Positions 24,745-60,269 of a stretch of DNA of 64,000 nucleotides are shown here, one piece after another; the stretch's first letter is position 1, and every line of letters starts with the position of its first letter. This DNA is from Streptosporangiaceae bacterium. Lineage in GTDB: Bacteria; Actinomycetota; Actinomycetes; Streptosporangiales; Streptosporangiaceae. A model generated the notes under the pieces. That model ran no database searches and was not told where the DNA came from. It was given only the letters and a program-made list of their open reading frames with translations. A program made the translations under genes and the position numbers. The DNA lies in the NCBI GenBank assembly GCA_019245115.1, contig JAFARZ010000005.1, forward strand, positions 1 to 64,000, read 5' to 3'.

Positions 24745-24828
24745 CGTGCAGCTTTTGTCCCTTTCGCCGGATTCGCTGGGCAGATTTTCGTGGTTAATCC
24801 GGGCCTGGTGGTTACTTTTGTGCAGCAT
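24745..24828 (-). repeat. R1 core: 84-bp segment shared with the two 233-bp miniature elements
   Basis: The reverse strand matches 32674-32757 at about 74 of 84 positions and also matches 60146-60229, with no gaps. All three read as an open frame starting ATG-(C/G)TG-CAC-AAA-AGT and ending AAA-AGC-TGC-ACG. Only the core is present here: the flanks with the terminal inverted repeats are missing or unrecognisable. Confidence 0.75.
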
Positions 24829-24928
24829 GTGCGCGTTCCGAAACAAATCGAGTCTGCGGCGTGTCGTGGCGGGTGCCGATTTTGTCCAGATATGACCGTT
24901 ATGTGACGGCGGCTGCGGTGGACGACGT

Positions 24929-26379: not shown

Positions 26380-27882
26380 GTGACCAACACCGAGCCGAGT
26401 GTGAACGACGTGTTCTTCGTAACGCTCACTCGCGTCGCGAACCGGTCCGCGCTGTGGGGCGCGGCGGCCGCCGGGCTCGCGCTCGCGGGCGGGCCGCGCG
26501 GGAGGCGAGCGGCGGCGCGTGGCATGGCCGCCGTCGCGCTCGCCTCGGTCGCGGTCAACGGTCCGGTAAAGCAGGCGTTCCGCCGCCCGCGGCCCACGCG
26601 CAGGCCGCCGCTGATCCGGATGCCACGCTCGTCCTCGTTCCCGTCCGGGCATTCCGCCTCGGCGTTCGCGTTCGCGACCGCGGCCGGGGCGACGGTGCCC
26701 GCCGCCGCGACGGTACTGGTACCGCTCGCCGCCGCGGTCGCCTACTCCAGGATCCGCGTCGGCGTGCACCGGCCCAGCGAAGTCGTGTTCGGCAGCGCGC
26801 TGGGAATCGCCTCCGGCGCGCTGGTCAGCGCGGCCGACCGGCGGCGTCGAACCACCCAGGCGAAGCCCGCCAGCGGACTGCCCGCCAGCGGACCGCCGGC
26901 CAGCGGACCGCCGGCCAGCGACCTGCCCGCCGGTGTCGTGCTCGTCACCAGCCGGTTCGCCGGGCACAGCGGCGCGCTCGAGTCCGCCCGCGAGCAGATG
27001 CGGCGCGGCGGCCTGGAGATCGTCTCCGAACTCGATGTGTCGGACATGACCGGCCTGCGCGACCAGATCCGTGCCTCGGCGCCACAAGGCCCGCGGCTCG
27101 TGGTCGCCGCCGGCGGGGACGGCACCGTCGGCGCGGTCGCCGACTGCCTGGCCGAAACCAATTGTGTCCTCGGTATCTTGCCGCTCGGCACTTCCAACGA
27201 CTTCGCGCGTTCGCTGGGCATCCCGATCGATCCCAGGCGAGCGGCCGCCCTGCTGACCCAGGGCAAGATCGCTGGCGTCGACCTCGGCCGCCTGGTGGTG
27301 CCGGGGCAGCCCGCCAGGCATTTCGTGCACGCCGCCACGGTCGGCCTCAACGTCAACTTCGCCAAGCTGGCCACGCGGGCGTCGATGCGGGCTCACCTCG
27401 GGCGCCTGACCTACCTGATCGCGGCCCGCAACGCGCTACGCGCGCGCCCGGCCTTCGCGTGTGAACTGCGTCACGACGGACACACCGAGAAGCTCGCCCT
27501 CACCCAGCTTTCGGTCATCAACGCGCCGGTCTTCGGCGGCGCGCTCGGGCTCAGCGTCGAGGGCTCCGACCCCGACGACCGCCTCCTCGACGTCCTGGCG
27601 ATCGAGGACCTCCCGGTCCGCCGCCTGCTGCTGGCCGGCTGTTTCCTGTTGCTGCGGGTCAGACGGCAACTCCCGGGCGTCCACACCTTTCATATCCGCA
27701 CGCTCCACGTGCACACCGAGCGCCCGCTCGACGTCGCCCTCGATGGCGAGGTGCTCGGGCGGCTACCCGGCGACTTCGAGGTGGTCGGTGAAGCGCTGCG
27801 CGTGATCACCCCTCTAGACTTCGTAGACGTTGTCGAGGGAGAAGCACCACCATCCGTTCGTTTAAAAAGATCTTTTAACTAG
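26380..27882 (+). CDS. PAP2 phosphatase-diacylglycerol/lipid kinase fusion
   Basis: Protein of 500 residues joining opposite activities. Residues about 1-155 are a PAP2-type lipid phosphatase: K64-x6-RP, SFPSGHS at 86-92, and SR-x5-H at 123-130, although the following acidic residue is Glu. Residues 163-183 are a linker of tandem PASG units (12-bp DNA repeats). Residues about 185-500 are a YegS/DgkA-type lipid kinase with AAGGDGTVGAVAD near 243-255 and LPLGTSNDFARSLGIP near 267-282. The fusion is known in actinobacteria and suggests turnover of phosphatidate or isoprenoid phosphates at the membrane. GTG start 26380. A hairpin overlaps the 3' end. Confidence 0.9.
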   Translation: MTNTEPSVNDVFFVTLTRVANRSALWGAAAAGLALAGGPRGRRAAARGMAAVALASVAVNGPVKQAFRRPRPTRRPPLIRMPRSSSFPSGHSASAFAFATAAGATVPAAATVLVPLAAAVAYSRIRVGVHRPSEVVFGSALGIASGALVSAADRRRRTTQAKPASGLPASGPPASGPPASDLPAGVVLVTSRFAGHSGALESAREQMRRGGLEIVSELDVSDMTGLRDQIRASAPQGPRLVVAAGGDGTVGAVADCLAETNCVLGILPLGTSNDFARSLGIPIDPRRAAALLTQGKIAGVDLGRLVVPGQPARHFVHAATVGLNVNFAKLATRASMRAHLGRLTYLIAARNALRARPAFACELRHDGHTEKLALTQLSVINAPVFGGALGLSVEGSDPDDRLLDVLAIEDLPVRRLLLAGCFLLLRVRRQLPGVHTFHIRTLHVHTERPLDVALDGEVLGRLPGDFEVVGEALRVITPLDFVDVVEGEAPPSVRLKRSFN

Positions 27883-27977: not shown

Positions 27978-30656
27978 ATGCCGATCGCGTCGATTGAACG
28001 CACGATCCAGGACGCCTATCTTCAGCTCAGCCGATCGGCCGCTGTGGCGCGGCACTGCCGCCGGCGCTACCTGGACGACCAGCCACGACGGCCCGCGGCG
28101 CCCGGCCTGGCCTCGCTGACCGCCGCCCATCCGTGGGCGCTGAGCGGCTTCGGTGACGCGGCCTGGGACGCCTACCGGCCCGACCTCGACGCGCCGCCGC
28201 CGGATGGATTGCGGATCGGCGTCCTGCGGGACGGTAAGCTGCCGGTCGTGCCGGCGCTGGCCAGGTTCGCCGGGCACGGCCACATCCTGATCACCGAGTC
28301 CGGATTCACCGAGGGGGCACGGTCGCTGTTGCAGGCGCTGGCGCTCCGGCTGGCCACCGCCACCCGGCCGGGCACGGTGCGGTTCGCGCTCGCCGATCCG
28401 GTCGGACAGGGGCGGTACCTGAGCGCGTTCCTCAGGCTGCCCGCGCAGCTCCGGGAGGGCACCGGGATCGCGGCCGGTACCGACGAGATCGAGGCGCTGC
28501 TGACCGCGCTCACCCGCCATGTCGTGGAGGTCACCCAGACCCGGCTGACCAATGTGTACGACTCGGTGGAGGACTACAACGCGAGCACCACCGGGACAAC
28601 GGTGCCGTACCACGTCCTGGTGCTGGCCGGTTTCCCGGCCGGTGTCGGGGACCGGGCCGCCGACCTGCTGAGCAAGCTGGCCCGCAACGGCCCGCGCGCC
28701 GGGCTGTACATCCTCGCCACGGTGGATCCCTGGCAGCGGATGCCCCGCGGCTTCGACCTGACCGCGCTGACCGCGCTGGGCACGAACGTGGGCCTGTCCC
28801 ACGACGGCGACCTCACCTGGGATGATCCGGATTTCGGGGCGAGCGTGATCGAGCCGGACCAGATGCCCGTCGCCGCCCGGGTCAACCCGTTGCTGGACGC
28901 GGTCGGGGCCGCGGCCGGCGCGGCGGTTCGGGATCTTCCGTTCGGCCGGATCGCGATCGCCGCGGCGCGGCGCTGGGCCGGCTCCACCGCGGACGGCCTG
29001 AACGTGCAGATCGGCGTGGACAGCAAGGGTGAGCCGCAGCACTTCGTGATGGGCGTCCGGGGGGTGCACCACGGGCTGGTGGGCGGAGACGTCCGGATGG
29101 GCAAGACCAACCTGCTGCACGTGCTGATCTGCCAGCTCGCCCTCCGGTACCCGCCGGAAGAGCTCGAGCTGTACCTGCTCGACTTCAAGGAAGTCGAGTT
29201 CGACGCCTATCTGACCGAGCGGCTGCCGCACGCCCGCGCGATCGCGTCCCGCACCGACCGCGAGTTCGGCCTGAGCATGCTGCGCCGGTTCCACGACGAG
29301 ATCAACCGGCGGGCCAGGCTGTGCCGTGAGGCGAAGGTGACCGATCTGGCCGACTACCGGCACGACACCGGTCAGCCGCTGCCGCGGGCCCTGGTGGTCA
29401 TGGACGAGTTCCAGGTGCTGTTCAGCTCCGAGGACCGGCTGGCCCGCGAAGCCGGCCAGCTCCTGGCCGACATCGCCAAACGCGGCGCGGCGTTCGGCCT
29501 GCACCTGCTGCTGGCCACCCAGTCGCCCGGCGGACCGCTGACCGCGTACCTGCGGCCGGTGTATGAGCAGATGGCGCTGCGGATCGCGCTGGGCTGCACC
29601 CAGCCGACCGTGTCGCAGGCCATCCTGGGGGAGGGGAATGACGCCGCCACCAGGCTGGTCCGGGCCGGGGACGCGATCTACAACGACCGCCGGGGAGAGG
29701 GGGCCAACCCGGTCATGCGGATCGCGGCGCTGCCCACCCGGGAGCGGCTGGAGCTGATCCCGGCGATCCGGTCGATCCGGGCTCTGGGAGACGGCGGGGA
29801 GTACGCGGCGCCGGCCAGCTTCGACCCCGACGCTCCGGCGGACTTCCGTACCCACCCGGCCTGCGCCGCGTTTTCTGCGTTTTCCGGCCAGTGGCCGGAG
29901 CGGGGCAGCGCTGTCGAGGCGTGGCTCGGTCAGGCGGTCGAGATCAAGCCGGCCACGACCGCCACGTTTGAGCATTACGCCCGGTCGAACCTGCTCATCG
30001 TCGGGGGTGAGGAACGTGGCCATGGGCTGTTGCTGGCCACGCTGCTCAGCGTTGCGGTCCAGCGTTCCCCGGCCGACGCCAGCTTCACGATCGCCGAGTT
30101 CACCCGGCCTTCGTCGCCGTTCCACGATTTCTTCGCCGCGGCGAAGGACCTGCCGCACGATGTGCGGATCGCCGACCGCAGGACCGCCGGGGAGGAGCTG
30201 GAGGCGCTGATCGGGGACCTGGACGCGCGTCTGGACGGCACCGGGTCCGGGCCCGAGCGGTTCTTTTTCATCGCCGGCATGCACCGCTGGTACGAGCTGG
30301 TGACCGAAGGCGACTATGGACGCCCCAGCGAGACCTCCGCCGATCTGGTCCGGCTGGCCGGTCAGGGGCCGGACGCCGGTATCCACGTGGTGGCGTGGGC
30401 CGACAGTTACGCCACCGCCGAACGTGCGCTGCGGCGAACCGGGATAGGCCATTTCGGCCTGCGCGCGGTGCTCCGCGTGTTCTCGCCTGCGGAGAGCGAT
30501 TCGCTGCTGGGCGTGTCGGCGGCCGCCAGCCTGGACGACAACCGTGCCCTGTTCCGTGACACCGAATGGCCCATCGAACAGGTCGAGAAGTTCAAGCCGT
30601 ACTCGATCGCGTCGCTGCGCGCCTTTACCCAGGCCGCGTTCCGGAGTTCATCGTGA
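27978..30656 (+). CDS. FtsK/EccC-like multi-domain ATPase heading a five-gene operon
   Basis: Protein of 892 residues. The central FtsK/SpoIIIE domain has Walker A GDVRMGKT at 370-377, LLDFKEVEFDAYL near 400-412, Walker B ALVVMDEF at 471-478, and the LLATQSP sensor near 511-517. Two flanking modules look like degenerate copies of the same fold: ILITESGFTEGARSLLQAL near 103-121, and LLIVGGEERGHGLLLATLL near 672-690. A three-module row resembles EccC of type VII secretion more than the chromosome pump FtsK, but no transmembrane segment is evident at the N-terminus. Walker A has Met-Gly-Lys-Thr instead of Gly-Ser-Gly-Lys. It starts with ATG 27978 after TAGGGG, and its stop overlaps the next start (GTGA). 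It probably powers protein or DNA movement together with the four small downstream products. Confidence 0.85.
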   Translation: MPIASIERTIQDAYLQLSRSAAVARHCRRRYLDDQPRRPAAPGLASLTAAHPWALSGFGDAAWDAYRPDLDAPPPDGLRIGVLRDGKLPVVPALARFAGHGHILITESGFTEGARSLLQALALRLATATRPGTVRFALADPVGQGRYLSAFLRLPAQLREGTGIAAGTDEIEALLTALTRHVVEVTQTRLTNVYDSVEDYNASTTGTTVPYHVLVLAGFPAGVGDRAADLLSKLARNGPRAGLYILATVDPWQRMPRGFDLTALTALGTNVGLSHDGDLTWDDPDFGASVIEPDQMPVAARVNPLLDAVGAAAGAAVRDLPFGRIAIAAARRWAGSTADGLNVQIGVDSKGEPQHFVMGVRGVHHGLVGGDVRMGKTNLLHVLICQLALRYPPEELELYLLDFKEVEFDAYLTERLPHARAIASRTDREFGLSMLRRFHDEINRRARLCREAKVTDLADYRHDTGQPLPRALVVMDEFQVLFSSEDRLAREAGQLLADIAKRGAAFGLHLLLATQSPGGPLTAYLRPVYEQMALRIALGCTQPTVSQAILGEGNDAATRLVRAGDAIYNDRRGEGANPVMRIAALPTRERLELIPAIRSIRALGDGGEYAAPASFDPDAPADFRTHPACAAFSAFSGQWPERGSAVEAWLGQAVEIKPATTATFEHYARSNLLIVGGEERGHGLLLATLLSVAVQRSPADASFTIAEFTRPSSPFHDFFAAAKDLPHDVRIADRRTAGEELEALIGDLDARLDGTGSGPERFFFIAGMHRWYELVTEGDYGRPSETSADLVRLAGQGPDAGIHVVAWADSYATAERALRRTGIGHFGLRAVLRVFSPAESDSLLGVSAAASLDDNRALFRDTEWPIEQVEKFKPYSIASLRAFTQAAFRSSS

Positions 30657-31567
30657 CCACGCAGCAACCGGCGGTCCAGCCCGCCACTCCCGCCTCGCCC
30701 TACCTGCGCCTGCGCCAGGCGGTACGCCCCGCCATATTCGCCCAGCGTCTGCTGGCCGGCGACGCCGAACGAGCCAGCAGCCTGGCCGCGGAGTGCGAGG
30801 AACTCCTCATGCTGTCCCGGGAGCTGATCAAAGCCACCGGCCGCGTCCACCTCCTCGACCCAGGCCGGTCGTCCGCCCTCGACCCGGGCCGGTCGTCCGC
30901 CCTCGACCCGGGCCGGTTGTCTGGTCTCGACCCGGGCCGGTCGTCTGGTCTCGACCCAGGTCCGCCGCCCCCCTCTCCCAGCATGTCGGACATTTCCGAA
31001 ATGTCCGACATATCAGGGACTCTCAATCGGCAGGAGCTGCTCCTGGACGCGTACGCGGAAGCAGGGCTGGGATGGGCGAAGGTGGTCGGCAGCCTGATGG
31101 CCCTGGCCGGGACGCTGCTCGGCCGAGGCGAATGGGAGGACGTGCGCCGGCTGGCCGACATCCTGTTCGAAGCGGGGGAAAGCTACGCGGCCAGGGACCT
31201 CCGTGCGCAGCTTTCCGGAGCCGTCTGGGAAACGTACCAGGATCAGCTACAACGCATTACCGACAAAATGCCACCCAACGACATCCGGAACAGCATAACC
31301 GCGCTGCGGACGATCCTTCTCGAAACCCCGGAGGATTTCGCCGATCGAAACCGGGATGTCAATCGTCTTCTGGCGCCGCTCGCCGCCTCGATACTCGCGA
31401 TCATGAAAGGCTACGCTATCGAGATACCCCAGGACAGCAGGGTCGAACACATAGCAGGAGGCGGGGTCGCCAGGTACCCGGAAATTGTCAGGACGAGCCT
31501 CGATGAGCTCTCTGCCGAATTCGAGGGACTCGTGCAGTGGCTTGGACGGGCCAGAAGGAGCACATGA
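30653..31567 (+). CDS. 304-residue protein of the FtsK-like operon, unknown family
   Basis: I do not recognise a family. GTG 30653 overlaps the ATPase stop codon. Residues 1-67 are helical (YLRLRQAVRPAIFAQRLLAGD, then AAECEELLMLSRELIKATG). Residues 68-104 are a low-complexity linker made of 24-bp DNA repeats encoding LDPGRSS(A/G). Residues about 111-121 (MSDISEMSDIS) are encoded by a DNA palindrome. From 122 onward there is an all-helical domain (ELLLDAYAEAGLGWAKVVGSLMALAGTLLGRGEWEDVRRLADILF...). There is no signal peptide or membrane span. The linker suggests two folded parts joined flexibly; a scaffold or adaptor role for the ATPase is inference. Confidence 0.75.
   Translation: MTTQQPAVQPATPASPYLRLRQAVRPAIFAQRLLAGDAERASSLAAECEELLMLSRELIKATGRVHLLDPGRSSALDPGRSSALDPGRLSGLDPGRSSGLDPGPPPPSPSMSDISEMSDISGTLNRQELLLDAYAEAGLGWAKVVGSLMALAGTLLGRGEWEDVRRLADILFEAGESYAARDLRAQLSGAVWETYQDQLQRITDKMPPNDIRNSITALRTILLETPEDFADRNRDVNRLLAPLAASILAIMKGYAIEIPQDSRVEHIAGGGVARYPEIVRTSLDELSAEFEGLVQWLGRARRST
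30854..30964 (+). repeat. 24-bp in-frame tandem repeat
   Basis: About four and a half units of 24 bp beginning CTCGACCC(A/G)GGCCGGT, at 30854, 30878, 30902, 30926 and 30950. Each unit encodes Leu-Asp-Pro-Gly-Arg-Ser/Leu-Ser-Ala/Gly. Unit number probably varies between strains. Confidence 0.85.
30983..31011. repeat. 29-bp palindrome inside the coding region
   Basis: Arms of 14 bp (ATGTCGGACATTTC and GAAATGTCCGACAT) flank a single central base. The palindrome stays in frame and encodes Met-Ser-Asp-Ile-Ser-Glu-Met-Ser-Asp-Ile. An imperfect relative lies at 36236-36260, and half-sites with CCGACATTTC lie at 36705 and 48666. Confidence 0.8.
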
Positions 31568-31903
31568 GTGGCTGGGGTAATCAATGACGTCGAGGCTCTG
31601 GCGGAGTTCAGAGTTCACCTGATGCAGTTCAACCGGGAGCTGGCGGAGAGCTTCGCGGCCATTCGTGGTCACTGGCTCGAGCTGGGCGACGTCTGGCGGG
31701 ACGACATGTACCGGCTGTTCGGCGAGGCGCTGGAGGAGGTCACTCCAGGGATCGAGGTATACCTGTCGGCGACCGAAGGCCATGAGGCGCATCTGGCCGC
31801 GCTGATCGAGCAGCTTCAGGCCTATCTCGACACCGGTCTGGTGGCTACCGGGCGCGACCACAGCCGGCGCGATCAGGGGCGACGTGACCAGGGTCGACGC
31901 TGA
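31568..31903 (+). CDS. small helical WXG100-like protein of the FtsK-like operon
   Basis: Protein of 111 residues predicted all-helical. EALAEFRVHLMQFNRELAES forms one helix. The turn HWLELGDVWRDDMYRLFGEAL is followed by a second helix ending in EQLQAYLDTG. The W-x-x-D-x5-F pattern recalls WXG100/ESAT-6 family substrates, but the Trp-x-Gly turn itself is not exact. GTG 31568 directly follows the previous stop codon and has GGAG upstream. The tail (RRDQGRRDQGRR) is a short Arg-rich repeat. The gene overlaps the next by 20 bp. Possible partner or substrate of the ATPase (inference). Confidence 0.7.
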   Translation: MAGVINDVEALAEFRVHLMQFNRELAESFAAIRGHWLELGDVWRDDMYRLFGEALEEVTPGIEVYLSATEGHEAHLAALIEQLQAYLDTGLVATGRDHSRRDQGRRDQGRR

Positions 31904-32339
31904 CATCGAGGCGCTCAAGGAGTTCCACGCCGCGCTGATCCGGTTCCGTGACGCGCAGCGGGAAGTGGCCGCCCGGGGCGGCCAGGAGGTCGAGGCGGCC
32001 CGCGCGTCCCTCGCCGAGCGGGCCGGCCACTGGCGATCCGTGCTCGAGCAGCGCCAGGCTGAACTCGACGTCTGCCGGCGCCGGGCCGCCCAGGCGCCGG
32101 CGATGGACGACGAGGTCGACTGTGCGGGCTACGTCCATGCCGTCGCCGAAGCGGAACAGCGGCTTGAGCAGATCCGCCGCTGGCAGCAGCGGGTCGAGGA
32201 GGAAGCCAGCGTGTTCGTCGGCGTCGCGGGCCGGTTCCGCAACCTGCTGGAGAACGATCTGCCCCGGACCCAAGCCCACCTTTCGGCACTGATCACCCGC
32301 CTGGAGGCCGCGCGCGGCGTCCAGTCTCCGGGTTCCTGA
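31884..32339 (+). CDS. coiled-coil protein of the FtsK-like operon
   Basis: Protein of 151 residues, very rich in Ala, Arg, Glu and Gln with heptad character: RFRDAQREVAARGGQEVEAARASLAERAGHW in one helix, RSVLEQRQAELDVCRRRAA in the second, and VAEAEQRLEQIRRWQQRVEEEASVF in the third. Two conserved-looking Cys residues (DVCRRR and DCAGYVH) are present. GTG 31884 lies inside the preceding gene. Its length and helical hairpin layout would fit a rod-like adaptor. I know no named family for it. Confidence 0.7.
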   Translation: MTRVDADIEALKEFHAALIRFRDAQREVAARGGQEVEAARASLAERAGHWRSVLEQRQAELDVCRRRAAQAPAMDDEVDCAGYVHAVAEAEQRLEQIRRWQQRVEEEASVFVGVAGRFRNLLENDLPRTQAHLSALITRLEAARGVQSPGS

Positions 32340-32341
32340 TC

Positions 32342-32557
32342 ATGCCCGCTCAGATAGACACCGACGGCGGACACTCGCTCAGCCTGCTGGCCGACGCCTG
32401 GGACAAGGCCGCGCAGCACTGGCACGACGAAATGGCCCGTGACTTCGACGTCCACCACGTCCGGCCGTTGCTCGACGAATCCCGCACCTACCTGGACGCC
32501 CTCCGCGACCTGATCGAAGTCCTGGATACCGCCACCCGCGACACCACCCCGTCTTGA
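32342..32557 (+). CDS. 71-residue helical protein, last gene of the FtsK-like operon
   Basis: Short protein with two helices: SLLADAWDKAAQHWHDEMARDF and VRPLLDESRTYLDALRDLIEVL. The W-x-D-x5-F-x5-V-x-P pattern matches the middle of the 111-residue protein encoded two genes upstream (VWRDDMYRLF...VTP), so the two may be paralogues. It begins 2 bp after the previous stop codon. A miniature transposable element starts 8 bp after its end, which may have removed or separated further operon genes. Confidence 0.65.
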   Translation: MPAQIDTDGGHSLSLLADAWDKAAQHWHDEMARDFDVHHVRPLLDESRTYLDALRDLIEVLDTATRDTTPS

Positions 32558-32564
32558 CCAGGGC

Positions 32565-32797
32565 CTAGAGTGCCAGTCAAGTAATCCCGAGTATCACCGC
32601 GGCCGGAAGTCCGCGCGGCGGGCCGCTCAGATTACTGCGGTAATTCGGGGCTATGCGGTGACTTTGGTGCACTATGCTGCACAAAAGTCACCGCGAAGCC
32701 CATATCAACCACGAAAACTTGCCCAGCGAATCCGGCGAAAGGCACAAAAGCTGCACGTCCAGCGGATCCAGCCCACTACTTGACCGGCACACTCTAG
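32565..32797. mobile_element. 233-bp miniature inverted-repeat element (R1 copy A)
   Basis: Begins CTAGAGTGCCAGTCAAGTA and ends in the near-inverse (TACTTGACCGGCACACTCTAG), so it has roughly 19-bp terminal inverted repeats with CTAG at both outer ends. A second element of the same length lies at 60037-60269, about 88% identical by eye. Inside, GGTGACTTTGGTGCA and TGCACAAAAGTCACC form a 15-bp stem with one mismatch, followed by the 84-bp core. It has no transposase gene, so it must move in trans. CTAG or TA duplications are known for IS5- and IS630-type elements; the family here is not determined. Confidence 0.85.
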
Positions 32798-34224
32798 CGG
32801 GCAGCGGGCTGGGCGTGGAGGACGTCCCGGTTCAGGTGCTTCTTGATCAGTTGACCGAGTTCGGCACCGTTGATGAGGGTTATCCGGTTGCGTCGCGCGA
32901 ACTGCTCGCCGGCCTCGCTGAACCAGGATGTGGTGACCAGGACGCCGGCGGTGGCGTTGTGGTCGGACATCGCTTCGGTCAGGACGTGAACGGATTCGAG
33001 CCCGACCTGGTCTGCCGAGGACTCGGCTTGCAGGAGGCAGGCACCGTCGGAGAACAAGCTCTTGCTCGTCACGACCGCGCTCATCCGGCTACCTTCGGCT
33101 GGGAGCGCGGTCCAGCCTTCGGCGCCCATCGCCACGAACAACTGCCGGAGCAGGTGCTCGAACTCGGCGGCTGATACCTTCAGCAGGTTGGGGCGGGATT
33201 CCAGGCCGGCGATGACATCGGTGCCTTCGGCCAGACGGAACCGTTGCGGGTCGAAGGCCATGAACGGCTGCACGGCCTCCAGACCGTACGGATTTGGTGA
33301 CAACAGCCCGTTCAGGTGTGTCACGCACGCGATCGGCTCCACGTCGGCCAGGACCAGATCGTCGAACGCGGGCCGGTCCACCGCCAGGCTGAGCAGATGC
33401 GGACGGATGGGTTTCCCGGTCGCCGGATCGACGGTGCTGGCGCGCCCGTTGAAGACAACCGCCGCCACGACATCGGGCTGCGTGGCGCTGAATATCTCGT
33501 GCAGCGTGCGCAAGGCAATAGCGCAGATGAGCCTTTTGTAACGCTGCTTGACCTCGTTCTCCGGACGTGGCACCGGCTCCACCGCGTCGCGCGTCCTGGC
33601 ATACCGGAACGCCCGCATGGTCGGCACTATGCGCCGTGGCGGCAATTCGAATTCCACCACCACGTCGCGGTTCTCCGGACGATAGACGACCCGGTTCTCT
33701 CGTGGGAAGACCTCCGGGTACAGCGAGGCGGCGAGCACGCAGGTGACGAACCACTCGACCGATTCGGCATTTCCGGTGCCGAAGGCGGCCTGCTGGGCGA
33801 CGACATAGGCGTTCCGCCTGGCCGCTTTGGCGCGCTCCTCGGTGATCTCTTTATCGTGGTGCGCTTTAGCGGCGGCGAGGGCGTCGAGCCGCTCGGCTTC
33901 TTGCCTGGTGTGGTCCGAGCGGGCCGCCTCGAAGCGGGCGCGCGCTGCCGCCACCTGCCGCCCATAGCGCGCACCGCGAAACAATCGGCTGAGCAGGCCG
34001 GGGCGGACCGGCGCGAAATCGCCCCACTCCGGCGCGGGTGCTGCGATGCCCAGCGGTCCGGGATCGAATTGCGGCGTCTGCGGCGTGACCATGAGATGTC
34101 CGAAGCTGAATTCCTTGCGTCGCAGCGCACTCACCAGTATCTGGTCGAGCACCTTGATCTGTCGCGCGACCCCGGCCGTCCAGTCCTCCGCCTGCCGCTG
34201 CTGGGGATCCTCTTCCTGCTCCAT
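32794..34224 (-). CDS. Mrr-like restriction-endonuclease-fold protein with degenerate active site
   Basis: Protein of 476 residues. The first 130 residues are charged and contain a coiled coil (ARARFEAARSDHTRQEAERLDALAAAKAHHDKEITEERAKA region, about 90-130). The middle (160-340) is of unknown type. The C-terminus has the Mrr-cat layout: SAAEFEHLLRQLFVAMGAEGW near 350-370, SKSLFSDGACLLQAESSAD near 385-405, and GVLVTTSWFSEAGEQFARRNRITLINGAELGQLI. The catalytic Q-x-K is here Q-A-E-S, so nuclease activity is doubtful. The stop codon TAG is supplied by the CTAG end of the adjacent miniature element, so the original C-terminus may have been a little different. It faces the FtsK-like operon. Confidence 0.75.
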   Translation of the reverse strand: MEQEEDPQQRQAEDWTAGVARQIKVLDQILVSALRRKEFSFGHLMVTPQTPQFDPGPLGIAAPAPEWGDFAPVRPGLLSRLFRGARYGRQVAAARARFEAARSDHTRQEAERLDALAAAKAHHDKEITEERAKAARRNAYVVAQQAAFGTGNAESVEWFVTCVLAASLYPEVFPRENRVVYRPENRDVVVEFELPPRRIVPTMRAFRYARTRDAVEPVPRPENEVKQRYKRLICAIALRTLHEIFSATQPDVVAAVVFNGRASTVDPATGKPIRPHLLSLAVDRPAFDDLVLADVEPIACVTHLNGLLSPNPYGLEAVQPFMAFDPQRFRLAEGTDVIAGLESRPNLLKVSAAEFEHLLRQLFVAMGAEGWTALPAEGSRMSAVVTSKSLFSDGACLLQAESSADQVGLESVHVLTEAMSDHNATAGVLVTTSWFSEAGEQFARRNRITLINGAELGQLIKKHLNRDVLHAQPAAR

Positions 34225-60036: not shown

Positions 60037-60269
60037 CTAGAGTGCCAGTCAAGTAATCCCGGGTATCACAGCGGCCGGATGTCCGCGCGGCGGGCCGCTC
60101 AGATTACTGCGGTAATTCGGGGTCCTGTGGTGACTTTAGTGCACTATGGTGCACAAAAGTCACCACGAGGCCCGAATCAACCGCGAAAACATGCCCACCG
60201 AATCCGGCGAAAGAGACAAAAGCTGCACGGCCAGCGGGGTCCAGCCCTACTACCTGACCGGCGCTCTAG
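60037..60269. mobile_element. 233-bp miniature inverted-repeat element (R1 copy B)
   Basis: Starts CTAGAGTGCCAGTCAAGTA and ends TACCTGACCGGCGCTCTAG. It is about 88% identical by eye to 32565-32797 and of the same length. GGTGACTTTAGTGCA and TGCACAAAAGTCACC form the internal stem; the 84-bp core is at 60146-60229. Both copies carry CTAG at each end. Confidence 0.85.

Follow-up and report, generated by a model that had tools for sequence, protein, structure and literature searches.

Background

EccC-type ATPases together with WXG100 proteins are regarded as a mark of type VII secretion. Here we report on a tightly packed five-gene operon, A-B-C-D-E, encoding proteins of 892, 304, 111, 151 and 71 residues, respectively, on the plus strand at positions 27978-32557 of a 64,000-nucleotide stretch of DNA (the window; positions 1 to 64,000 of contig JAFARZ010000005.1) from a Streptosporangiaceae bacterium (GCA_019245115.1). 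The operon combines an EccC/FtsK-type ATPase (A) with two WXG100-type hairpins (C and E), and we hold it about evenly balanced that it is a stand-alone representative of the FtsK/EccC-WXG100 class that works inside the cell, most likely in conflict or stress (such as phage defence), and not in export.

Among the closest described systems are Type III-A CoCoNuTs, where Bell et al. (2024) found such an ATPase accompanied by a coiled-coil nuclease and two WXG100 proteins. They also cited earlier work in which the operon occurs on its own, and the link of the FtsK-WXG100 class to TerY-P/CoCoNuT is thereby published (PMC11090510). As in that module, the window ATPase has three ATPase domains, the central one alone active, and no transmembrane helix, and is encoded with two WXG100-type hairpins (here C and E) and a coiled-coil protein (D). 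In contrast to it, there are no McrBC, TerY-P, VWA or CARF genes here and none of its companion kinase and phosphatase genes, A lacks a long N-terminal coiled coil, D carries no nuclease fusion, and B and a separate nuclease-dead protein, M, are extra.

In Helicobacter pylori, the HP0062/HP0066 locus has been termed a minimal type VII set (PMC4978471, PMC3397514). The solved structure of HP0062 is a hairpin whose bend carries WRD (PMC3397514) and, as here, the WRD hairpin (3FX7) is encoded near an FtsK/SpoIIIE ATPase, in this case in a Gram-negative bacterium, whereas its partners are a DnaK homologue and an HNH nuclease (PMC4978471, PMC3397514). Moreover, HP0062 crystallised as a homodimer while two different hairpins are encoded in the window (PMC3397514, PMC4978471). 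Finally, the type VIIb LXG toxins are long helical proteins encoded with two small WXG100-like hairpins, Lap1 and Lap2, and like D in some phyla they carry variable C-terminal domains (PMC9600955). This likeness is one of gene order and hairpin kinship and not of demonstrated sequence homology; YukC is absent here and the window D has no effector domain.

The preliminary description of the window, made from its letters and open reading frames, had named a match to a described system as counting against its reading. This applies in part: in outline the class is already known computationally, from HP0062/HP0066 and from the FtsK-WXG100 modules that belong to some CoCoNuT/TerY-P loci. New here are the four-gene core that stands alone, the pair of WxD hairpins encoded around D and the extra C-terminal domains of D in other phyla.

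Results

A is a soluble EccC-like ATPase with one active domain

Gene A (27978..30656, plus strand) encodes a central FtsK domain (Pfam FtsK_SpoIIIE 3e-29, residues 345-562) with Walker A GDVRMGKT (~370-377) and Walker B MDEFQ (473-479), placed between degenerate N and C domains that are both ATPase-like and lack a P-loop. One good and two degenerate FtsK domains had been proposed, and sequence, structure model (predicted local distance difference test, pLDDT, 85.6) and fold search all bear this out. Exactly one GxxxxGK[ST] motif is present in 106 of 107 A homologues (none in the other), and G375-K376 of Walker A and D476-E477 of Walker B are invariant in 40 A sequences. In the model of the window A the first domain begins after about 75 residues; planctomycete homologues are longer by several hundred residues at the N terminus.

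The likeness to EccC was confirmed both by sequence and by fold, EccC/EssC giving the top matches. Specifically, the profile match to EccC5 was 1e-41, the NCBIfam EccC domains matched at 1e-28 to 1e-29 (far below their equivalog cut-offs), and in the Foldseek search with the model EccC 4nh0 was best (E 1e-32), with FtsK motor structures next after EccC/EssC. In a domain-by-domain comparison the active domain was nearest EccC D1 in 10/10 EccC proteins; Bell et al. label the same domain D2 (PMC11090510). Assignment of the outer domains to particular EccC domains was ambiguous, and the PADLOC matches of A (mad8, SspH) were due to the common FtsK domain only. A thus shares the EccC fold and the WXG100 partners with the type VIIa (ESX) system but differs from it in having no membrane anchor, no EccB/D/E/MycP, no export arm and one P-loop instead of up to three. 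Hydropathy analysis revealed no transmembrane segment in A to E (maximum 1.24 for A), and no hydrophobic segment in the A proteins of the four genera that carry the operon.

C and E are paired WXG100-type hairpins

The products of genes C (31568..31903, plus strand, abutting B) and E (32342..32557, plus strand, after a 2-nt gap downstream of D) have WRD (W43, D45) and WHD (W27, D29), respectively, at the hairpin bend. In the C family 33 of 38 members match Pfam WXG100, the nearest solved structure is H. pylori HP0062 (E 1e-17), and the W and D of the bend are invariant in all 38 sequences. In the E family 8/33 sequences match Pfam WXG100 weakly, a profile match links E to the C family (E 2e-6), and W20, W27 and D29 are invariant in 33 sequences. 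Judged by sequence, C and E are therefore WXG100-type hairpins with WxD replacing WxG at the bend. The W-x-D-x5-F pattern noticed earlier in two of the small proteins is located in these two and is not due to chance, since it recurs in 61/66 C and 65/68 E homologues. Hence, the kinship with type VII systems is closer than had been claimed, in that the small proteins are of WXG100 type, while no channel part was found in the locus. The YxxxD/E export motif was detected in 1/38 C and 0/33 E sequences, and is depleted relative to the shuffle expectation (11.3 and 4.7). At two relatives, in Thiodictyon and an Acidobacteriaceae bacterium, two tandem C-type hairpin genes precede D (L141:7051-7614 and L145:12545-13101).

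D is a variable coiled-coil protein and B is specific to few genera

Gene D (31884..32339, plus strand, overlapping C by 20 nt) encodes a coiled coil, and the family is conserved in its position between C and E. In alignments, homologues reach about double this length in Chloroflexota, Proteobacteria, Acidobacteriota and Desulfobulbaceae and have extra C-terminal domains. By eye, the tail of the Anaerolinea D (L082) resembles a PD-(D/E)xK nuclease (GFDGI...EIKTN), the tails of L076, L077, L141 and L145 resemble ParB, and the L115 tail resembles a zinc-binding nuclease. A PDB search with the L082 tail gave no match, and the attempt to name these domains via Pfam yielded just a weak ParB_N match (0.03) for one tail and an Imm33-like C-terminal match (7e-13) for a planctomycete D. 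The Imm33-like domain is present on the D proteins at L095:309-1343 and L120:7174-8196.

Gene B (30653..31567, plus strand) starts with GTG at 30653, overlaps A by 4 nt and encodes an all-helical (model pLDDT 73.6), weakly TPR-like protein. Its orthologues were found in three genera only (241-257 residues, 37-53% identical), one of them with a weak TPR_4 match (E 0.009), and the fold search with the B model gave no match below E 0.07. A low-complexity insert (30857..31021, plus strand; LDPGRSS repeats, SDISEMSDISGT) is absent in all three orthologues and corresponds to low model confidence at residues 73-120.

The operon is rare but its core is widespread

The five open reading frames and their overlapping or touching junctions are positioned as previously described. 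B and C were passed over by a simple codon-usage gene caller and were instead tested through conservation. ABCDE orthologues in the same order are present in three other genera, G002 (L044), G031 (L045) and G035 (L046), with tblastn identities of 65-76% for A and 37-53% for B, and substitutions are in excess at third codon positions in nearly every comparison, the exception being E against L046. The conserved order in four genera and the third-position excess indicate that all five are real genes. The operon was found in 4/299 Streptosporangiaceae genomes, and 395 sampled genomes of the class gave no orthologue apart from the window.

We also surveyed the best 80 outside relatives of A, which are mostly from Planctomycetota but also from Verrucomicrobiota, Lentisphaerota, Chloroflexota, Acidobacteriota and Proteobacteria. 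C-D-E stand in order beside A at 56/80 of these loci and partially at 8 more; at many of the remaining loci the sequence ends at or near A. Both CDE-A and A-CDE arrangements occur, A before C-D-E, as in the window, in three. The order of all five genes is conserved in the three other genera, and the co-occurrence that the preliminary description had proposed to look for in many genomes is seen for A with C-D-E. A tree of the central domain, built by a quick method and showing long branches, groups the window with Anaerolinea L082 (support 90). At another Anaerolineae locus (L076:5545-9604) two proteins with coiled coil and WD40 propeller are encoded between C-D-E and A.

A is present in 19/148 sampled Planctomycetota genomes (13%), which rules out a universal core role in that phylum. 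The only recurrent neighbour families near C-D-E-A are common chromosomal ones (kinases, proteases, sulfatases) and neighbours of a few close relatives. A housekeeping or developmental scaffold, where the ATPase and hairpins build an internal structure unrelated to conflict, would fit the conserved chromosomal neighbourhood of the module in some planctomycete clades and the many planctomycete D proteins (most of them) without a toxin or nuclease domain. We nevertheless consider it improbable given the low frequency in Planctomycetota and Streptosporangiaceae (~1% in the latter) and kin that are embedded in conflict loci (PMC11090510). Neighbours of individual relatives suggest conflict or protein-quality roles: VWA, PP2C, kinase and CARF genes adjoin a Caballeronia relative, TerD lies beside one Rhodococcus relative and Hsp70, DnaJ-TPR and GrpE beside another, HNH and SMI1 genes adjoin a Helicobacter relative, and WD40 or TPR proteins adjoin others.

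Type VII channel components are largely missing

Scanning the window locus and its flanking genes gave no EccB, EccD, EccE or mycosin, as had been stated. Genome-wide, EccB was missing in 24/26 A-bearing genomes (EccD, EccE and mycosin were not searched at this level) and YukC (YukC/EssB) in 26/26, with a positive Bacillus subtilis control; several of these genomes are drafts, so that single EccB or YukC absences are weak while the overall pattern is strong. EccB is encoded elsewhere in the window genome and in G031, i.e. in two of the four actinobacterial hosts. Specifically, contig C224 of the window genome carries an ESX locus with EccB, EccC and three WXG100 matches, and contig C352 another EccC-like ATPase and a WXG100 gene.

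These data bear on a minimal type VII-like secretion device, in which A exports C, D and E (or a D-type effector) via a borrowed or novel channel. Secretion was judged likely by Bell et al. (PMC11090510), and the ESX locus of the window genome and the EccB of two hosts are in its favour. However, A to E have no transmembrane helix, and the absence of EccB and YukC from the genomes given above, together with the lack of YxxxD/E in C and E, makes ordinary type VII secretion unlikely. The minimal secretion device suggested earlier is accordingly disfavoured, and we regard secretion of this kind as unlikely.

M and the surroundings of the operon

On the minus strand, facing the operon, gene M (32794-34224) encodes a relative of the Mrr-type type IV restriction enzymes (PADLOC mREase_IV 1e-103, Pfam Mrr_cat 7e-18) and is a possible associate. 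M has lost the catalytic D and K: it reads MSAVV...QAES where 8/8 aligned relatives have the intact GVDAVA...QAK, in agreement with the degenerate nuclease-fold protein noted before. M adjoins the operon at 3/4 orthologous loci and is nuclease-dead or nuclease-less at all three, the nuclease domain being missing in two; the most divergent locus is without M. M may be retained as a binding module, or it may be decaying.

Since M belongs to a type IV restriction family and A to the FtsK/HerA superfamily, with FtsK motors following EccC/EssC in the fold search, A could be a pump on invading DNA and M a reader of modified DNA in a DNA-processing defence. This has a low probability in our view: sequence and fold put A nearest EccC, no FtsK gamma (winged helix) DNA-reading domain was detected in A (no Pfam match at E<1), the most divergent locus lacks M, and near A in Planctomycetota only the common chromosomal families recur. 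The DNA pump suggested earlier is a minor possibility, with the missing gamma domain and the EccC-like nearest motors speaking against it.

The flanks of the four orthologous loci have no nucleotide similarity beyond M and a 34-base match, which suggests that ABCDE is moved or maintained as one block. The flanking genes in the window encode DAGK/PAP2, DUF1345, epimerase, BNR and CoA-transferase proteins. Directly upstream of A (26380-27882) is a PAP2 phosphatase fused to a diacylglycerol-kinase domain; a PAP2 gene also adjoins M in L044, which is probably a coincidence. An interspersed repeat of ~230 bp with imperfect terminal inverted repeats (CTAGAGTG...CACTCTAG) is present at 32558-32793, 60037-60262 and 24745-24832, and the first of these copies separates E from M. 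It has 57 matches genome-wide, ~20 near full length, and resembles a miniature inverted-repeat transposable element (MITE).

Discussion

Our data argue for a stand-alone EccC-WXG100 module acting inside the cell, because C-D-E accompany A in several phyla and a type VII channel does not. The patchy spread in Streptosporangiaceae and Planctomycetota, and relatives beside CARF, TerY-P-type, TerD, HNH and Hsp70/DnaJ genes, support a conflict or stress role. A defence system, as proposed before, is plausible, but only by association.

In such a module, C and E would hold the helical D between them, by analogy with the Lap1/Lap2 hairpins that clamp an LXG domain, and deliver it to the ring formed by A. 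On docking, the ring might assemble and the central domain hydrolyse ATP, and D and its cargo would thereby be pulled on or remodelled. The extra C-terminal domains of D in other phyla look like effectors; as the window D is bare, the client may be brought here by the TPR-like B or by the nuclease-dead M. That the five proteins form one complex with an EccC-like motor, as first suggested, is well supported by conserved co-occurrence.

Several points weigh against intracellular action in conflict or stress. WXG100 proteins are usually secreted, and a novel channel might serve here. At the Chloroflexota locus L082 (3241-5925, Anaerolinea) an 894-residue TPR protein, in which two hydrophobic segments lie at the C terminus, is encoded directly after A, between A and C, i.e. 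at the position of B; homology between the two was rejected since profile comparison gave no significant match. Moreover, the window D, with its 151 residues, brings no effector or nuclease domain to the operon, the genes around the window operon and around its relatives in Planctomycetota are for the most part ordinary chromosomal ones and not defence islands, and complex formation is deduced from gene order, hairpin kinship and co-occurrence.

A bolder form of the intracellular reading, which we put forward tentatively and as the less probable of the two, is that the channel-free EccC-type motor never secretes and that the paired WxD hairpins load and remodel a swappable coiled-coil effector, D, in a phage- or stress-triggered manner in several phyla. 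Our literature search, in a limited library and hence not proof of absence, found no paper that treats Planctomycetes, WXG100 and FtsK together. If true, a widespread motor and hairpin pair without channel or export signal would have another, intracellular job, perhaps older than secretion, and the compact four-gene C-D-E-A core makes this idea directly testable.
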